Shown here piece by piece: positions 17,697 to 25,875 of a stretch of 64,000 nucleotides of DNA; positions within the stretch are counted from its first letter, which is position 1, and every line of letters starts with the position of its first letter. The stretch comes from Dechloromonas denitrificans (GTDB lineage Bacteria; Pseudomonadota; Gammaproteobacteria; Burkholderiales; Rhodocyclaceae), in the NCBI RefSeq assembly GCF_001551835.1, contig NZ_LODL01000019.1, positions 90,475-154,474 of the forward strand, given 5' to 3'. A model generated the notes under the pieces. That model had not been told where the DNA came from. It saw only the letters and a program-made list of their open reading frames with translations, and made no database searches. The position numbers were made by a program, and so were the translations under genes.

Positions 17697-17799
17697 GATT
17701 ACCTCCTGATGTTGACGTCGAAAATGGCTTACCCGCGAGCGGGCTGCTGCCTTTGAGCAAGTTATCGGCCAAAACGTGTCGAAAATGGCGGTGGTTTAC

Positions 17800-17825
17800 G
17801 TTAAGCGGGGTAAAGCTTTGTTAAG
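17800..17825 (+). promoter_or_regulatory. Triple CpxR-like direct repeat upstream of EF-hand gene
   Basis: GTTAAG (17800), GTAAAG (17810) and GTTAAG (17820) lie exactly 10 bp apart, one helical turn, on the same face of the DNA. OmpR-family regulators bind such tandem direct repeats, and the CpxR consensus is GTAAA-N5-GTAAA. If the EF-hand -10 is the GATAAC at 17766-17761 (- strand), the repeats sit at about -46 to -71, an activator position. Confidence 0.6.
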
Positions 17826-17972
17826 AAAATGGCAAGGTCGGCGTGTTTTGGTGAAAAAGCTGGTTATTTTTGGCGAAAAGCGGCAAATTTTCCGGTCCGG
17901 CAATTTGTGCCGGCCACCCAAAATGCACGTCGCCGGCATGAATGGATGGCGCTGCATTTTTGCTGCCGGCGA

Positions 17973-17992
17973 CCGGTCGACCGCCGGACTCG
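17973..17992. repeat. 20-bp exact repeat, copy 1
   Basis: Identical over 20 bases to 22139-22158 and contains a SalI-type GTCGAC core. Both copies are intergenic and flank the two response-regulator genes. Meaning unknown; could be chance similarity in GC-rich spacer. Confidence 0.4.
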
Positions 17993-18055
17993 TGAGCGGC
18001 AGCCCGCAGCGGGCGCCCGCTTGGCCAGGGCCAGCTTCCTGCCCTGAAGTGCCCG

Positions 18056-18070
18056 GTAAAAGTCTGTAAA
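18056..18070 (+). promoter_or_regulatory. CpxR-type box GTAAA-N5-GTAAA upstream of the regulator gene
   Basis: GTAAA (18056-18060), five bases, GTAAA (18066-18070): an exact match to the enterobacterial CpxR consensus. It lies 73 bases before the CpxR-like start codon, which suggests autoregulation as known for cpxRA. Confidence 0.6.
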
Positions 18071-18142
18071 TTCCGGTGCTTGCGGCTGGTTGGCCGGGAG
18101 CCGCTTGGTTATCATCGGCCCTTCCCTATCCATGAGTCTGCA

Positions 18143-18838
18143 ATGAATCCAAGCCCTCACATCCTGCTGGTCGACGACGATGTCGAACTGGCCGGCATGT
18201 TGCGCGACTACCTGATCCAGGAAGGTTTTGCCGCAACCGCCGTGCACGACGGCGAAGCGGGCGTCGCCGAGGCCTTGTCCGGCCACTACGCCATCGTCGT
18301 GCTTGATGTGATGATGCCGAGGATCAGCGGCATCGAAGCGCTGCGCCGAATCCGTGCGGCGAGCAGTGTGCCGGTGCTGATGCTGACGGCGAAGGGCGAC
18401 GACATGGATCGTATCGTCGGCCTCGAATTGGGCGCCGACGACTATGTGCCGAAGCCCTGCCTGCCGCGCGAACTGGCCGCCCGGTTGCGTGCCATCCTGC
18501 GCCGGACGCAACAGAGTGGCGAAACGACGGGCGGGGCGCCGCTGGTGATCGGCGCCCTCAATGTCCTGCCCGAGCAGCGGCGGGTCGAGTGGGCCGGCGC
18601 CCCGGTCGACCTGACCAGCACCGAATTCAACCTGCTCGAGATCCTGGCCCGCAACGCCGGGCGCCCGGTCAGCAAGAGCGATCTTTCCGAGCTGGCGCTG
18701 GGGCGGCCGCTGGCCCGCTTCGACCGGAGCATCGACGTCCATCTGTCGAGCATTCGCCACAAGCTGGGCTGCCTGGCCGATGGCCGCTCGTGCATCCAGA
18801 CCGTCTACCGGCAGGGTTACCAGTTGATTAGGGAGTAG
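18143..18838 (+). CDS. CpxR-like OmpR-family response regulator
   Basis: 231-aa transcription regulator. The receiver domain (1-120) has the acidic pocket DDD at 11-13, phospho-acceptor Asp55 (VLDVMMP), and the DDYVPKP Lys; the winged-helix output domain covers about 135-228. The receiver is strongly CpxR-like (LELGADDYVPKPC, RELAARLRAILRR). Start at 18143 is chosen over an in-frame ATG at 18080 because ILLVDDD should be near the N-terminus. The kinase gene starts one base after its stop. CpxR-type boxes lie upstream of this gene, its divergent neighbour and the following tolC-like gene. Confidence 0.9.
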   Translation: MNPSPHILLVDDDVELAGMLRDYLIQEGFAATAVHDGEAGVAEALSGHYAIVVLDVMMPRISGIEALRRIRAASSVPVLMLTAKGDDMDRIVGLELGADDYVPKPCLPRELAARLRAILRRTQQSGETTGGAPLVIGALNVLPEQRRVEWAGAPVDLTSTEFNLLEILARNAGRPVSKSDLSELALGRPLARFDRSIDVHLSSIRHKLGCLADGRSCIQTVYRQGYQLIRE

Positions 18839-18839
18839 C

Positions 18840-20003
18840 GTGGGCCGGCTGTTCTGGAAGTTCTTCCTGTTCATCTGGCTGCTGCAACTGGCCGGTGTCG
18901 GCGGGGTCAGCCTGCTGTTCTGGCTGGAGCGCCAGCAGGCCGAGGCCCAGTGGCGCGCGCAACTGGCCGCTTCGGGCCTGCCGCCCGAGGCGCGGCCGCC
19001 ATTCGACTGGGCGCGCGGCGGCCCGCCCGGACCACCGCCGGGTTTGACCGGTGAACGCCCGCCCGAGCCGGCGCATTTTTCCCGCCCGCCGCCGCCCGAG
19101 ATGCGGCACGGCCCGCGCCTGCCGCTGATTCCCCTGCTCGCTGCCTTGCTGGTCAGTCTGCTCAGCGCCTTCGGCCTGGCCTGGTACTTTGCCAAGCCGA
19201 TCCGCCAGTTGCGGCGCGCCTTCGATGCCGCGGCCGACGGTGATCTGGCGGTCCGCATCGGTGATGGCATGGGCGGGCGGCGGGATGAACTGGCCGATCT
19301 CGGTCGCGATTTCGACCGGATGACCGAACGCCTGGCGGCGCTGGTCGATGGCCAGAAAAAGCTGCTGCACGATGTGTCGCACGAGATGCGCTCGCCGCTG
19401 GCCCGCCTGCAGGCGGCGATCGGCCTGGCCCGGCAGCAGCCGGCGCGGATGGAGGATTCGCTGGGCCGCATCGAGCGCGAGGGGGAGCGGATGAATCTGC
19501 TGGTCGGCGAACTGCTCACCCTGTCACGCCTGGAAGCCGGTGTCAGCGGTGTGCTCGAAGAGGTCGAGATGGGCGAACTGCTCGACGACATCGTCGAGGA
19601 TGCGCGTTTCGAAGGGGCGGCACGCCAGGTCGCGGTCGACTTCGTGGCCGGCGAGATGCCGGAAATTCGCGCCAATGGCGAACTGCTGCATCGCGCCATC
19701 GAAAATATCGTGCGCAACGCGCTGCGCTATTCGCCGGACGGCGGCATGGTCCGCCTCGAGGCCGGGTGCCAGGGCAGTTGCTTCCGGCTGGTGGTCAGCG
19801 ATCACGGACCGGGCGTGGCCGAGGATGAGCTGGCGGCGATTTTTACGCCATTCTTCCGGGGCGGCGGCCAAGGTAGCGGTGGCGGCTATGGTTTGGGGCT
19901 GGCGATTGCCAAACGGGTGGTTGCTGCGGTCAACGGCCAAATACAGGCAAAAAATGCGGACACCGGCCATGGCCTGATCGTTGAAATTGAGCTGCCTGTG
20001 TAA
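18840..20003 (+). CDS. CpxA-like sensor histidine kinase
   Basis: 387-aa membrane kinase, GTG start. Transmembrane helices at about 8-28 and 96-117 enclose an unusual periplasmic loop of about 65 residues rich in Pro, Arg and Gly (PPGPPPGL, RPPPPEMRHGP) instead of the normal CpxA sensor fold. HAMP at about 117-170, phospho-acceptor His181 (HDVSHEMRSPLARLQ), then an HATPase domain with N (NIVRNALRYSP), DHGPGV and GLGLAI boxes. Partner is the adjacent CpxR-like regulator. The loop composition suggests sensing of cations or envelope charge, but this is only inference. Confidence 0.88.
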   Translation: MGRLFWKFFLFIWLLQLAGVGGVSLLFWLERQQAEAQWRAQLAASGLPPEARPPFDWARGGPPGPPPGLTGERPPEPAHFSRPPPPEMRHGPRLPLIPLLAALLVSLLSAFGLAWYFAKPIRQLRRAFDAAADGDLAVRIGDGMGGRRDELADLGRDFDRMTERLAALVDGQKKLLHDVSHEMRSPLARLQAAIGLARQQPARMEDSLGRIEREGERMNLLVGELLTLSRLEAGVSGVLEEVEMGELLDDIVEDARFEGAARQVAVDFVAGEMPEIRANGELLHRAIENIVRNALRYSPDGGMVRLEAGCQGSCFRLVVSDHGPGVAEDELAAIFTPFFRGGGQGSGGGYGLGLAIAKRVVAAVNGQIQAKNADTGHGLIVEIELPV

Positions 20004-20009
20004 GGAAAT

Positions 20010-20024
20010 CTTACAAAAACTTAC
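20010..20024 (-). promoter_or_regulatory. CpxR-like direct repeat upstream of the TolC-family gene
   Basis: CTTAC-AAAAA-CTTAC on the + strand, which reads GTAAG-TTTTT-GTAAG on the - strand: two half-sites 10 bp apart with the same core as the sites at 17800 and 18056. It abuts a -35/-10 pair for the following gene. Confidence 0.55.
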
Positions 20025-20051
20025 ATAAACATCTGTTGTGTTTTCTATAAT
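20021..20051 (+). promoter_or_regulatory. Promoter for the TolC-family gene
   Basis: TTACAT (20021-20026) and a perfect TATAAT (20046-20051), spacer 19 bases. The region is AT-rich in a GC-rich background. It follows the kinase stop by 17 bases and overlaps the CpxR-like repeat, so the TolC-family gene has its own regulated promoter in addition to read-through. Confidence 0.6.
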
Positions 20052-20172: not shown

Positions 20173-22014
20173 ATGAAACAGAACGCCATTCTCGTCCTTC
20201 TTCTCGCTACCGTTTTCCCCGCCCTTGCCCAGACGTCGCTGCCGGCGACGCTGAAGGAGGTGGCGCAGCAAGCGGTGCTGAACAGCCCGGAAGTGACCTC
20301 GAAATGGCACAACTACAAGGCGGCGGAAGAAGAAATCGGGGTGGCTCGCGGCGGCTTCCTGCCGCGCGTTGACCTGACCGCCGGCGGTGGCCGGGAAACC
20401 CTGCAACAACCGCCGCTGCGCGACCGTAACGACTACAGTCGGAGCAGCTACCTGCTCAGCCTCAACCAGATGCTCTTCGACGGCTTCGCCACCCACAACG
20501 AAGTCCGTCGCCTCGACAAAGCCCGCCTCGTTCGCTACTACGAACTGCTCGACGCCTCCGAAAACGTCGCCCTCGAAGCCGCCCGCGCCTACCTCGACGT
20601 CCTCCGTTACCGCTTCCTGGTCAATCTCGCCGAAGACAACTACGTCCAGCACAAAGCCACCCACGAACAACTCATCCGGCGCACCCAAAGCGGCGTCGGT
20701 CGTCGCGTCGACCTCGAACAAGCCGGCAGCCGCCTCGCCCTCGCCGAAATCAACCTGACCACCGAAACCGCCAACCTGCACGACGTCACCGCCCGCTACC
20801 AGCGCCTGATCAACAGCCAGCCCCCCGGCACCGTGCTCCCCCCCAGCCAGCTCGGCAACCAACTGCCGGCCAGCCAAAAAGCCGCCCTCGACACCCTCTA
20901 CCAAAAAAACCCGGCCCTCCTCGCCGCCGTTGAAAACATCGAAGCCGCCGAACGCGACATCGACGTCCGCCGTGCCGCCTACAGCCCCAAACTCGACTTC
21001 CGGGCCCGCACCGACAACACCAACAACTACCTCGGCGTCGACGGTCAACGCAACTACAACGTCGCCGAACTCGTCGTCAGCTGGAATATCTTCAACGGCG
21101 GCAGCGACCGCGCCCGCGAAAAGCAATACATCGAACGCAAGCACCTCGCCGTCGATCTACGCGAAAAAGCCTGCCGCGACACCCGGCAAACCCTCGCCAT
21201 CGCCTACAACGACGTCCAGCGCCTGAAAGAACAAAGCACCTACCTCGCCACCCAGGTCAGCCTGCTCGAAAAAACCCGCGACGCCTACCGCGACCAATTC
21301 AACGTCGGCCAACGCACCCTGCTCGACCTGCTCGACACCGAAAACGAACTGCTCAGCGCCCGCCGCAACGCCGTCAACGCCGACACCGACTTGAGCCTCG
21401 CCTACCTGCGCACCTACGCCGGCATGGGCACCCTGCTCGAAGTCCTCGGCCTGCAAAAACTCGACGCCCGCGACCCGGCCGCCAACGAACTCGCCGGCAG
21501 CGACGCCCGCCAATTCTGCCCGGCTGAAGCCATCACCCAAGTCGCCAGCAACCGCGAAACCCTCAACGCCCGCGCCATGGCCCAACTCGACAGCAAGCCG
21601 GCGCTCCCTGCCGCCGCCGTGCCGCCGGCCAGCCTCGACGGCGAACTGCAAGCCCAGGTCAACGCCTGGGCCGCCGCCTGGGCCGCCAAGAACTACAACG
21701 ACTACCTCGCCTTCTACGCCCCCAGCTTCACCCCGGACGGCGGCCTGAGCCGCGAAGACTGGGCGCAACTACGGCGCAGCCGGATCGCGACCCGTGACAA
21801 CATCGGCGTCGAGCTGCACGACATCAAGATCCGGCTGGACGGCCCGGACCGTGCCTTCGCCGAATTCCGCCAGGTCTATCAGTCGAATCAGTACAAGGAC
21901 ACGACGCAGAAGAGCCTGGAGCTGATCAAGGTCGGCGGCAAGTGGCTGATCAACCGGGAAAGCTCGGTGCCTTGTACTGGGAATACCGTCGGCGGGTGTA
22001 AGGTCAGCCGCTAG
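20173..22014 (+). CDS. TolC-family outer-membrane protein with C-terminal Cds6-like domain
   Basis: 613 aa. A signal peptide (MKQNAILVLLLATVFPALAQ) leads into a TolC-type outer-membrane channel, about 25-450: LKEVAQQAVLNSPEV, two coiled-coil/beta repeats, and FNVGQRTLLDLLDTENELLSAR in the second. Residues about 495-605 form an NTF2-like domain of the Cds6 type (AWAAKNYNDYLAFYAPSF, WLINRES) normally seen in L,D-transpeptidase or cell-envelope proteins. Such fusions are known in type I secretion outer-membrane components, but no ABC transporter or HlyD-like adaptor is adjacent. From about 20430 to 21770 codon choice is unlike the neighbours (Leu CTC, Lys AAA, Gln CAA, Glu GAA), giving a strong C-over-G skew. 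Confidence 0.82.
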   Translation: MKQNAILVLLLATVFPALAQTSLPATLKEVAQQAVLNSPEVTSKWHNYKAAEEEIGVARGGFLPRVDLTAGGGRETLQQPPLRDRNDYSRSSYLLSLNQMLFDGFATHNEVRRLDKARLVRYYELLDASENVALEAARAYLDVLRYRFLVNLAEDNYVQHKATHEQLIRRTQSGVGRRVDLEQAGSRLALAEINLTTETANLHDVTARYQRLINSQPPGTVLPPSQLGNQLPASQKAALDTLYQKNPALLAAVENIEAAERDIDVRRAAYSPKLDFRARTDNTNNYLGVDGQRNYNVAELVVSWNIFNGGSDRAREKQYIERKHLAVDLREKACRDTRQTLAIAYNDVQRLKEQSTYLATQVSLLEKTRDAYRDQFNVGQRTLLDLLDTENELLSARRNAVNADTDLSLAYLRTYAGMGTLLEVLGLQKLDARDPAANELAGSDARQFCPAEAITQVASNRETLNARAMAQLDSKPALPAAAVPPASLDGELQAQVNAWAAAWAAKNYNDYLAFYAPSFTPDGGLSREDWAQLRRSRIATRDNIGVELHDIKIRLDGPDRAFAEFRQVYQSNQYKDTTQKSLELIKVGGKWLINRESSVPCTGNTVGGCKVSR

Positions 22015-22045: not shown

Positions 22046-22109
22046 CTAATACCGTTCAGTTAAGCGTCATTCCCGCGAAAGCGGGAATCCAGGAGCCGAG
22101 CGTTATTAG
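22046..22109. mobile_element. 64-bp MITE-like element with internal ATTCCCGC palindrome
   Basis: Ends CTAATAcCG and, inverted, CTAATAaCG (8 of 9 match). The interior contains a perfect 8-bp hairpin ATTCCCGC-GAAA-GCGGGAAT (22069-22088). The core is the widely dispersed proteobacterial repeat that, translated on the - strand, reads WIPAFAGMT, a familiar spurious peptide. It is flanked by a 10-bp direct duplication. No transposase is encoded, so mobilisation would need one in trans. No other copy was seen in this window. Confidence 0.65.
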
Positions 22110-22170: not shown

Positions 22171-22881
22171 CTACTGGGCGTTCTGGACGTCGGCGATGAA
22201 GACGTAGCCCTGCGAGCGCAAGGTCTTGATGAAAGCGTTGCCGTCGGCCTGCTTGCCGAGAATGCGGCGGATCTGGCTGACGTGGACATCGATGATGCGA
22301 TCGTAGGCGACATATTCGCGCTTCAGGACGCGCGACAGTTGTTCGCGGGAAAGCGGCGCGAACGGGTTTTCCAGGAAGGCGCTGAGCAGCGCAAAGGCAG
22401 AAACGCCGAGCGGGCTGGACAGGCCTTCGTTGTGGGTCAGTTCGCGCGAGGCGGTGTTGAGCGTCCATGGGCCGAACTGGATGTTGCGTGCTTCGCCGCG
22501 CAGGACCGGCGGGTTGCGCCCTTGGCTGCGGCGCAGCAGGCCGCGGGTGCGGGCGAGCAGTTCGCGCAGGTTGCACGGTTTGGGCAGGAAATCGTCGGCG
22601 CCGATTTCGATGCCGATGATGCGCTCGATTTCATCGGAGCGGGTGGAGTGGATGAGCACCGGCACTTCGGATTGCTGGCGCAATTGGCGCAGCAACTCGA
22701 GGCCGTCGGCATCGGGCAGGCTGAGATCAAGAATGATGACGTCGGGGTTTTCGCCAAGCTGGCGCCACATGGCGGCGCCATTTTCGGCGTAGATCGCGCC
22801 GATGCCTGCAGTGGCCAGGGTGGTGCCAAGGATATGGCGGGTGGCGGGATCGTCTTCAACGATAAGTGCAGTCTGGCGCAT
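22171..22881 (-). CDS. OmpR-family response regulator (TorR-like)
   Basis: 236-aa regulator. Receiver domain 1-120 with DD at 10-11, Asp52 as phospho-acceptor (IILDLSLPDADG) and the KP switch Lys (DDFLPKPCN); winged-helix output domain about 140-230 (RIIDVHVSQIRRILG). ATG 22881 is chosen because the receiver fold starts at its TALIVEDD; an upstream ATG at 22926 is possible. No kinase gene is on the same strand; the divergent Hpt/hybrid-kinase genes across the 166-bp gap are the likely phosphate donors. Confidence 0.88.
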   Translation of the reverse strand: MRQTALIVEDDPATRHILGTTLATAGIGAIYAENGAAMWRQLGENPDVIILDLSLPDADGLELLRQLRQQSEVPVLIHSTRSDEIERIIGIEIGADDFLPKPCNLRELLARTRGLLRRSQGRNPPVLRGEARNIQFGPWTLNTASRELTHNEGLSSPLGVSAFALLSAFLENPFAPLSREQLSRVLKREYVAYDRIIDVHVSQIRRILGKQADGNAFIKTLRSQGYVFIADVQNAQ

Positions 22882-23047
22882 GGGGCTGAATGCTTGAAAA
22901 GCCTGAAGGAACGAATTGTAATCCAAGGTAAAAAAACCGGGCTTGATTTACCATGCTGGCATGTTCAAATTCCCGTTTGCTGCAACAATTAGCCGATGAA
23001 CCAATTGCTACGACTGCTTCGCTGTTTTTCCGCAAGGTCGGCCTGAA

Positions 23048-23437
23048 ATGGCGGTTCCGACTTCACTGAACGGTTTCGATGTCGCGCCGGCGGTCGACCG
23101 CATGCTCGGACAGCCTGAACTCTGGTGGCAGGCAGTCGGCCTGTTTGTCGACCACTTTGCCGGCTGGGAACCAGTCTGGTTGGCGACGCGCGGCGACGAT
23201 GCGGCCGAATGCCGGCAGGTACATGCCTTGCGCAGCGCGGCCGCCAATGTCGGGGCCAGCCACCTGTCCTGCGTCGCCACCGTGCTCGAAGAGTTGCTGA
23301 GCATTCGCCTGGCGGGGCGGCCGGTGCCGGTGCCGGCCAGCCTGCGCTGGTATTTGCAGGATTGTTTTCGCGAGGTCTGGCAGGCGGCCGCCGAGGCCCG
23401 CTGGAGTGACGGACTGCCGGCCGCGAGGGCGGCGTGA
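23048..23437 (+). CDS. Hpt-domain phosphotransfer protein
   Basis: 129-aa helical protein. The segment [16 protein letters not shown] around residues 58-73 matches the histidine phosphotransfer motif (HxLKSxxxNxGA), with His59 as the phospho-acceptor. The rest lacks recognisable domains. Its stop overlaps the start of the hybrid kinase by four bases, so they are translationally coupled and presumably act in one phosphorelay. It is divergent from a TorR-like regulator, a plausible final target. Confidence 0.65.
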
Positions 23438-25875
23438 TCGGCGATCCCCGGGCATCTTTGCGGGCCCGGCTGGCTCGCCTCAACCGCTGCGTCTTGCTGA
23501 TGACCCTTGGCTTGTTCAGCGTACTTGTTCTGTGTCTGGCGGTCGGGTTGCGCATTCGGGGCCAACTCGACCCGGCGGAGTTCGATCAACAACTGCTCTG
23601 GCTGGTCGGGCTGCTTCTGCTGGCGGGCGGGCTGGCATTGCGGCTAGTGCTGCGCTGGCAGCAGCGGCAAATCGAGCTATTGCTGGCGCCGATGCAGGAC
23701 GTTGCCCGGCAGATGGCCGAGGTGTCGGCCGGGCAGTTCGACCGCCGGGTCACGCCGAGCGGCGTCGCCGAACTCGATCAACTGGGCGATGGGTTCAACG
23801 CGATGATCGATCAGGTGCGCGAACGCGACCGCTGGCTGGCCTCGCATCTCGGCAGCCTGGAGCAGATGGTCGAGCAGCGGACCCGCGAGTTGCGCCAGGC
23901 GAAGGATGCGGCCGAAGCCGGCAGCCGGGCGAAAAGCGAGTTTCTGGCGACGATGAGCCACGAGATCCGGACGCCGATGAACGGTGTGCTCGGCATGACC
24001 GAATTGTTGCTCGACACCCGGCTCGAACCCAGCCAGCGGCAATTCGTCGAGGCCGTCGAGCGTTCCGGGCGGCATCTGCTGGGCATCATCAACGACATCC
24101 TTGATTTTTCGAAGATCGAGTCCGGCAAGCTGGTGCTGGAAGATGAAGATTTCGATTTACGGACGCTGCTCGAGGAATCGCTCGAGCTGTTCGCCCAGCC
24201 GGCCCACAAGAAAGGGCTTGAGCTGCTGGCCGACCTGCCGACCGGTCAATCGCTGGTGGTGCGCAGCGACGCCTTGCGGCTGCGCCAGATCATTACCAAT
24301 TTGCTGGGCAACGCCGTCAAATTCACCGAACACGGTGAAATCGTGCTCGCTCTCGCCGTGCACCGCGCCGATGAAAACGGCCTGGCCTTCACGCTGACCG
24401 TCCGCGATAGCGGGATCGGCATTGCCGCCGAGGCGCAGCAGAAAGTGTTCGAGCACTTCGCCCAGGCCGACGGTTCGACGACCCGCAAATATGGCGGGAC
24501 CGGCCTTGGCTTGGCCATCTGCCACAGCCTGGTCGGCATGCTGGGCGGTAGCATGCGGCTGGACAGCCGCCCCGGGGCCGGCTCCAGTTTCCATGTCGAG
24601 CTGTGCCTGCCGCACGGCCAGGCGGCAAACTGCACTCCGCCCGCCAGCCCGCTGACGACCGGGGCTCGCCTGTTGATCGTCGATGACAGCCAGACCAACC
24701 GCGACATCCTGCTCGCCCAGGTCGAGAGCCGGGGCTTCGAAGCAGAAACCGCGGCCTCCGGTCGGGAGGGCCTGGATCGGCTGCGGGCCGCAGCCGAAGC
24801 CGGTGAGCCCTTCGCCTTGCTGCTGCTCGACATGCAGATGCCGGGCTTGAGCGGCCTGCAGGTGGCGACCGAGATTCGCAACGATCCGCGTCTGGCGGCT
24901 CTGCGCTTGCTCGTGCTCTCTTCGGCGATCGAGTCGATCGAGGCCACGGAGCGGGCCCGGCTCGGCATTGCCGACTGCCTGACCAAGCCGGTGCTGCAGG
25001 CCGAATTGTTCGCGGCCATCGCCCAGGCCCTGGCGCGGCATCCGCAGCCGGCGGGGCGGCCTGCCGTCGTCGCCCGCCCGCGCTTGCGCGGCCGGGTGCT
25101 GGTGGCGGAAGACAATGAAAGCAACCTGATTGTCGCCCAGGCCCATTTGGAGCGGCTCGGCCTGGCCGCCGGCATTGCAGCTAACGGCCGCCAGGCGCTG
25201 GAGATGTTGGCTGCCGAGCCTTTCGATCTGGTGCTGATGGATTGCCAGATGCCGGTGCTCGACGGTTTCGCGGCGACCCGCCTGCTGCGCGAGCGGGAGG
25301 CGGACAGCGGCCGGCATCTGCCGGTGGTCGCCTTGACTGCCAATGCCATGCAGGGCGACCGCGAGCGCTGCCTGGCCGCCGGCATGGACGATTACCTGGC
25401 CAAGCCGTTTTCCGGCGATGAAATGTTCGCCGTGCTGCAGCGCTGGCTGCCGGCCGAACGGCGGGAAGCGGTCGCCAGTGTCGCCAGCCCGGCCTTGCCG
25501 CCGGCCCCAGCGGCGCTCGATCCGGCCGCGCTCGACAAGATCCGGGCCCTGTCGCCGGACAAGGCCGATGAACTGGTCGGCCAGTTGCTGACCGCCTACC
25601 TGAAAGCGGCCAGCCGCGAAATGCAGAATATCGAAGCGGCCTGGCAGGTTGGCGATCTGAAACAAATGGCCCAGGCGGCGCATGCCCTGAAGTCGAGTTC
25701 GTTCAATGTCGGCGCCAATGTCTTCGGCGAAGGCCTGCGCGAACTCGAAAGCCTGAGCCTGGCCGGCGACCAGTCGGCGGTTCGGCGGCGCCTGTTCGCC
25801 ATCCACGAAGAGTGGCAGCGGGTCAGGGACGGCCTGGCTGCCCTGGAGGAGGAAAAGAAACGTGACTCAGCCTGA
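23434..25875 (+). CDS. Hybrid histidine kinase (HAMP-HisKA-HATPase-REC-REC-Hpt)
   Basis: 813 aa, GTG start. Two transmembrane helices (about 20-42 and 53-73) with almost no periplasmic loop, HAMP, a coiled-coil linker, phospho-acceptor His176 ([13 protein letters not shown]), ATPase domain ending in GTGLGLAI, first receiver with Asp466 (LLDMQMP), second receiver with Asp603 ([19 protein letters not shown]), and a C-terminal Hpt with His750 ([13 protein letters not shown]). BarA-like architecture, with one extra receiver. The short sensor region suggests that the signal is membrane or cytoplasmic. Flanked by a separate Hpt gene and a single-REC gene. Confidence 0.92.

Follow-up and report, generated by a model that had tools for sequence, protein, structure and literature searches.

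Probable tandem-repeat operators of an autoregulated CpxRA-like system in Dechloromonas denitrificans and its predicted EF-hand target

The DNA considered here, hereafter the window, is a stretch of 64,000 nucleotides from Dechloromonas denitrificans in which genes for a CpxR-like response regulator and a CpxA-like sensor kinase lie between a divergently placed EF-hand gene and a TolC-family gene (Table 1). Three direct repeats of GTAAA-like half-sites accompany these genes, and rereading the sequence confirmed each of them at the coordinates, and with the 10-bp half-site spacing, that an earlier sequence-only reading had given. Because of their positional conservation and the comparative evidence across relatives, we regard these repeats as likely operators, and the locus as very probably an autoregulated CpxRA-like two-component system with tandem-repeat operators.

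Table 1 Features of the CpxRA-like locus, in window coordinates
Feature	Position	Strand	Remarks
EF-hand protein gene, 223 aa	17025..17696	-	Pfam EF-hand_7 at 11-66, EF-hand_5 at 142-157; alignment of 15 relatives
Candidate sigma54-like -24/-12 element TGGCCGATAACTTGCT of EF-hand gene	17756..17771	-	fixed offset of 54 from operator start
Triple half-site operator of EF-hand gene, GTTAAGCGGGGTAAAGCTTTGTTAAG	17800..17825	+	gene-ward: CTTAAC, CTTTAC, CTTAAC, in 10-bp steps
Dyad CCGGCAATTTGTGCCGG, candidate upstream activator site	17897..17913	not assigned	GGCA-N3..7-TGCC pattern
CpxR-type box of regulator gene (putative autoregulation), GTAAAAGTCTGTAAA	18056..18070	+	in 72/80 loci
TATCAT, likely regulator -10	18110..18115	+	39 bp past box; helically phased spacing in relatives
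CpxR-like OmpR-family response regulator, 231 aa	18143..18838	+	Pfam Response_reg and Trans_reg_C
CpxA-like sensor kinase	18840..20003	+	Pfam HAMP, HisKA, HATPase_c
CpxR-type box of TolC-family gene, GTAAGTTTTTGTAAG	20010..20024	-	equal distance to TATAAT in window, L060, L061, L034 and L036
TATAAT, likely TolC-gene -10, 21 bp past box	20046..20051	+	
TolC-family outer-membrane protein with C-terminal Cds6_C (NTF2-like)	20173..22014	+	Pfam OEP and Cds6_C

The regulator has the receiver and winged-helix architecture of the OmpR family, and its residues 6-127 match the CpxR receiver structure 4uhj at 121.9 bits. CpxR is its best NCBIfam model (202.5 bits, cut-off 341) and CpxA models are the best for the kinase (248.9 bits against 800 and 210.9 against 486); as these scores lie under the cut-offs, "CpxRA-like", the label of the sequence-only reading, is right and "CpxRA" would be too strong. 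Within the kinase, a 68-aa stretch with 18 prolines runs between two hydrophobic segments (borders set by eye), and no folded periplasmic sensor domain was found there, the Pfam search yielding HAMP, HisKA and HATPase only.

Conservation of the regulator box was followed in two samples of relatives: sample A comprised 27 loci, 21 of them from the same genus, and sample B 80 loci kept out of 574 relatives, with 3 of the 27 sharing regulator DNA with a sample-B locus. The closest locus in the database belongs to Dechloromonas hortensis, whose regulator is 98% identical. An exact GTAAA-N5-GTAAA precedes the regulator by no more than 300 bp in 22 of the 27 sample-A loci, and in three of the five misses (L037-L039) an LTXXQ gene stands directly upstream of the regulator, with the box before the LTXXQ gene. 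In sample B, GTWARN5GTWAR occurs within 350 bp upstream in 72 of 80 loci; among the misses, L115 has 2 bp of upstream DNA, and L063 carries boxes at -754 and -733, separated from the regulator by an LTXXQ gene (57% identical). Other 350-bp tiles of the same loci hold a site in 29 of 2021 cases, the density being 4.69 sites per kb upstream of the regulator versus 0.058 per kb elsewhere, and a coding control (1.8 kb from each regulator start) contains a single site in 139,954 bp. When the half-site spacer k was varied across the 80 loci, k=5 gave 148 matches, k=15 gave 37 (three half-sites), k=6 gave 20 and other values 0-4; the reversed motif gave 6 at k=5 and 0-11 at other spacers. Two of the checks proposed in the sequence-only reading, conservation upstream of orthologues (here at the regulator and, below, at the EF-hand gene) and rarity in coding DNA, came out in its favor. 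This comparison indicates that Cpx-like autoregulation via an enterobacterial-type box is probably widespread in Betaproteobacteria.

The position of the box relative to the promoter is also patterned. Among 76 non-redundant regulator promoters, 67 TA(T/A)NAT matches were counted 10-60 bp past the box, at distances of 17-19 (3), 26-28 (22), 38-40 (34) and 47-52 (8) bp. These distances to the putative -10 step by about one helical turn (Rayleigh R = 0.88 at period 10.5, n = 67, with p-values that shared ancestry prevents from being taken literally), a helical phasing that would be expected if a box-bound protein had to face RNA polymerase.

With a threshold of E <= 1e-15, the EF-hand gene is found in 20 of the 40 genus genomes. 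At least one GTWARN5GTWAR pair lies upstream of it in 20 of 20 best genus matches (window included), and the full triple operator, by the GTWAR pattern, in 16 of 20; a distant EF-hand paralogue (L204, 42%) has no box upstream. The operator stays with the EF-hand gene when that gene lies away from the regulator, at about 750 bp in four loci (L040, L045, L047, L048) and about 4 kb in another (L053). At the order level the gene occurs in 25 of 250 genomes and, with the window excluded, the operator at 14 of 24 EF-hand loci. The protein itself shows EF-hand matches towards either end of its first 160 residues, along with a proline run and conserved ends including a C-terminal LSVSA; neither a hydrophobic N-terminal stretch nor a recognisable signal peptide was seen in it by eye.

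A few further observations concern this family. In one genome the EF-hand gene is seemingly internally duplicated, with two successive matches (L202/L203, G031:C2:301061-301906), one of them reported with an internal stop. Boxes also precede five Ser-rich proteins (L083:280-909, L100:2529-3182, L127:3151-3918, L089:3410-4030, L079:6902-7855) that have at most one visible EF-hand loop and mutually similar-looking N- and C-termini; they may form a family that is sister to the EF-hand protein. A strict link between the EF-hand gene and flagella was considered and rejected: flagellin (PF00669) occurs in 31 of 40 genus genomes versus 20 for the EF-hand gene, G006 and G012 carry the EF-hand gene without flagellin (G012 is 85% complete), and several genomes have flagellin and no EF-hand gene. 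G020, G021 and G024 lack both.

Downstream of the operator, the EF-hand promoter contains a conserved GGCCGATAAcTTGCtCA (30 promoters). We entered 45 EF-hand-type promoters, of which 25 were left once similar ones had been removed; L089 was counted among them though its gene has no detectable EF-hand. Left out before the count was L192, in which the third half-site departs from the triple pattern and the sigma54-like element is degraded; also outside it were L127 (element present, 20 bp further away), L132, L112, L083, L100 and L107 (no such element seen) and 10 order-level loci without the operator. GG[CAT]N7TTGC occurs in 17 of the 25 promoters and in 37 of the full 45, each time with an offset of 54 relative to the operator start; 8 of the 25 are without it. 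Elsewhere in those loci it occurs 35 times in 128,908 bp. GG-N10-GC with TTGC is a sigma54 signature. A GGCA-N3..7-TGCC dyad occurs in the 150 bp preceding the operator in 16 of 25 promoters versus 11 of 122 control windows; its distance from the operator varies from 42 to 134 bp, and it is a candidate for an activator site acting at variable distance.

Overlapping the sigma54-like element is CCGATAA, which resembles a FliA -10. Its CGAT, counted at one exact position, is found in 14 of the 25 promoters: 12 belong to the 17 that carry the sigma54-like pattern, and 2 to the 8 that lack it. Among those 8 the count rises to 5 by eye if a one-base shift is allowed and to 7 if the whole 45-bp stretch is scanned. 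Since CGAT is kept at one place, a FliA-like or sigma70 -10 deserves consideration: the EF-hand promoter would then be read from CCGATAA and not by sigma54, and the regulator would be a conventional activator placed at a constant spacing. We consider this a serious possibility, though not the probable one. CTAAAG precedes a GCCG(A/T)-type -10 in 6 of 24 flagellin upstream regions, and CGATAA taken as the -10 puts the box 32 bp away, one turn beyond the 21 bp of the TolC promoter, as this alternative would have it; against it stand the fixed offset of the sigma54-like pattern, including five of the 17 promoters that have no CGAT, the absence by eye of a conserved TAAA at the FliA distance, and the failure of the EF-hand gene to track flagellin (only the EF-hand gene in G006 and the 85%-complete G012).

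If the sigma54 assignment is correct, one may postulate a scheme in which the CpxR-family regulator, having no AAA+ domain to open sigma54 promoters, would gate RpoN-dependent EF-hand expression (loop-assisting or blocking) from a triple operator placed between the candidate enhancer dyad and the sigma54 promoter, at an invariant distance upstream of the latter. Expression would thereby combine envelope stress with a second, sigma54-type signal, and the EF-hand protein would be the functional counterpart of CpxP in these bacteria. This scheme is tentative, and we would sooner doubt than adopt it. Such an invariant spacing to a sigma54-like element would be unusual as promoter designs go.

The sequence-only reading had predicted a compact regulon of three genes. 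The boxes of those targets are supported, but the regulon appears wider, taking in an LTXXQ gene and an efflux operon as well. The TolC-family gene is a member of the locus here, as that reading held, but adjoins the kinase in few species: it follows the kinase in 2 of 27 sample-A loci (L035 ends before that point), and L060 and L061 have a TolC-family gene there by sequence. A repeat exactly 21 bp before TATAAT is found in the window, L060, L061, L034 and L036, so that the distance is kept in all five readable loci, whereas the box pattern is matched in three. Support for the TolC box is moderate, because L060 is nearly the same species and a half-site of L034 and L036 is off the pattern. The protein matches TIGR01844 at 263.1 bits, above the cut-off of 225.15; its Cds6_C domain (residues 492-596) seems unusual for an outer-membrane channel.

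Within the same genome, the LTXXQ gene (PF07813, L032 7574-8098) has two boxes upstream and is not adjacent to the regulator. Across the genus, 29 LTXXQ loci were compared; 23 have a box upstream of the gene, and 11 of those have two pairs, separated by 21 bp. Exact copies of GTAAA-N5-GTAAA in this genome are the window box, one 96 bp before the LTXXQ gene and one 64 bp before the efflux operon, which encodes an outer-membrane efflux protein and an HlyD-type protein. Seven of the 17 GTWARN5GTWAR sites of the genome are clustered, four in the window cluster and three in the LTXXQ/efflux cluster; nine others (L140-L142, L147-L150, L152, L153), of which we viewed the context only, include some inside open reading frames (ORFs) and some, such as L140, L149 and L150, upstream of ORFs. 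In more distant loci, an EF-hand, LTXXQ or efflux gene stands divergent from the regulator in several cases and another gene in the rest (families named by eye from protein starts, some by Pfam scan).

One further candidate, a 353-aa protein (L146:1568-2629; own genome C19:361760-362818) with a box 53 bp upstream, was rejected as a regulon member: the box is found in just 7 of 30 loci (of the 30, three are short at one end and some represent a paralogue further removed), and what is conserved at these loci, TTAACTTT-N11-GCCGTTAA, resembles a FliA promoter both by its consensus and by comparison with flagellin promoters. Relatives of this protein were found in 31 of the 40 genus genomes; it has calcium-binding-loop-like stretches by eye and no Pfam match at E <= 0.01.

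Within the window, GTAAA-N5-GTAAA with at most one mismatch has 4 matches versus 0.37 expected, and none of 100 shuffles reached 4. The fourth of these, a one-mismatch box at 22918-22932, overlaps the start of a second OmpR-family regulator on the minus strand, which together with a hybrid sensor kinase further along occupies 22171-25875. A near-identical repeat (ccgttcagttaagcgtcattcccgcg...gcgggaatccaggag) is also found in two intergenic regions, at about 22048-22100 of the window and about 7000-7060 of L032.

Several results weigh against the regulon proposed here. The exact motif is not enriched genome-wide, with 3 copies in the 4,238,526-bp genome versus 6 of the reversed control and 120 versus 219 in the 40 genus genomes, in which it is thus rarer than its reverse; GTWARN5GTWAR likewise has 17 sites in the genome versus 80 for the reversed control. 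It is therefore position and conservation that carry the case for operators. Six of the 80 regulator loci are plain misses (L095, L111, L123, L137, L138, L139), no box was found at 6 of 29 LTXXQ loci, and the operator is missing at 10 of 24 order-level EF-hand loci, of which L311 begins at a contig start and L317 has two forward pairs further upstream. At the TolC gene, the repeat of L034 and L036 has one half-site off the box pattern and fits only a pattern that was relaxed once the repeat had been inspected. Lastly, the regulator and kinase fail the NCBI CpxR and CpxA equivalog cut-offs, and the loci are related, such that neither the counts nor the Rayleigh statistic are independent.

A different OmpR-family regulator could also bind the boxes, in addition to or instead of the one encoded here, given that more than one member of this family uses GTAAA-like direct repeats and that three order-level EF-hand loci (L302, L305, L313) have the operator but show no linked regulator within the fetched flanks. 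We judge this improbable: the box fronts this very regulator in most sample-B loci, and by our own tally the operator occurs at 11 of 11 order-level EF-hand loci with a regulator of at least 59% identity nearby versus 3 of 13 without one, linkage being judged within fetched flanks of about 1.5 kb. That the repeats are chance AT-rich promoter sequence, for which the missing genome-wide over-representation might speak, is extremely unlikely: the repeats keep their positions and are specific in spacer, their distances to the -10 follow the helical turn, and the operator moves with the EF-hand gene.

Under the CpxRA-like reading, tandem GTAAA/GTTAA half-sites at 10-bp spacing would be the binding sites of the regulator in its phosphorylated form, with envelope stress as the presumed signal; from a box in helical phase with the -10, the regulator would switch on its own promoter. 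Its other targets would be the EF-hand gene, the LTXXQ (CpxP/Spy-like) gene, the TolC gene in loci that have one and, in this genome, the efflux operon, all controlled through boxes oriented opposite to those genes. The EF-hand protein may have a feedback role: if its binding of calcium acts back on the envelope-stress response, the locus would constitute a small testable circuit, and the analysis in any case names a conserved calcium-binding target for a Cpx-like system.

In E. coli, cpxP occupies the slot divergent from cpxR. The EF-hand gene is divergent from the regulator and thus can fill that slot; it appears to occupy the place where some relatives keep an LTXXQ, stress-chaperone-like gene beside the regulator with the same box. 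Unlike CpxP/Spy proteins, the EF-hand protein has no Pfam LTXXQ match and no signal peptide recognisable by eye. Its residues 8-70 match the NCBIfam model of XopAW-family EF-hand proteins, but at 42.6 bits against a cut-off of 120 it is not a member. A search of the open-access literature (subscription papers were outside its coverage) returned no paper linking CpxR with EF-hand or calcium-binding proteins and none on CpxR and GTAAA sites in Betaproteobacteria. Neisseria MisR/MisS, a betaproteobacterial pair similar to CpxR/CpxA, is termed CpxRA-like and has the site consensus KWWWTGTAARGNNWH; the portions of these sources drawn on here name no EF-hand target, and the likeness is by description, not by MisR sequence (PMC7286886, PMC12697260). 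For P. aeruginosa, the part of the source used here describes CpxR as recognising GTAAA-N4-8-GTAAA, a box type present and exact at the window regulator's own promoter, and as activating the LTXXQ gene cpxP and efflux operons (PMC5063474). The E. coli and P. aeruginosa CpxRA regulon (cpxP, muxA, mexA), as far as that part covers it, shares with the present locus an OmpR-family regulator, GTAAA boxes, and LTXXQ and efflux targets (PMC5063474). The window differs in its divergent neighbor, an EF-hand gene and not cpxP, and in a kinase with a proline-rich loop, HAMP, HisKA and HATPase as its only Pfam domains, and sub-cut-off family scores. In its regulator, box, LTXXQ gene and efflux target, this is accordingly a CpxRA-like regulon of a known kind, and what is new is mainly the EF-hand protein as a conserved target, together with the design of its promoter.

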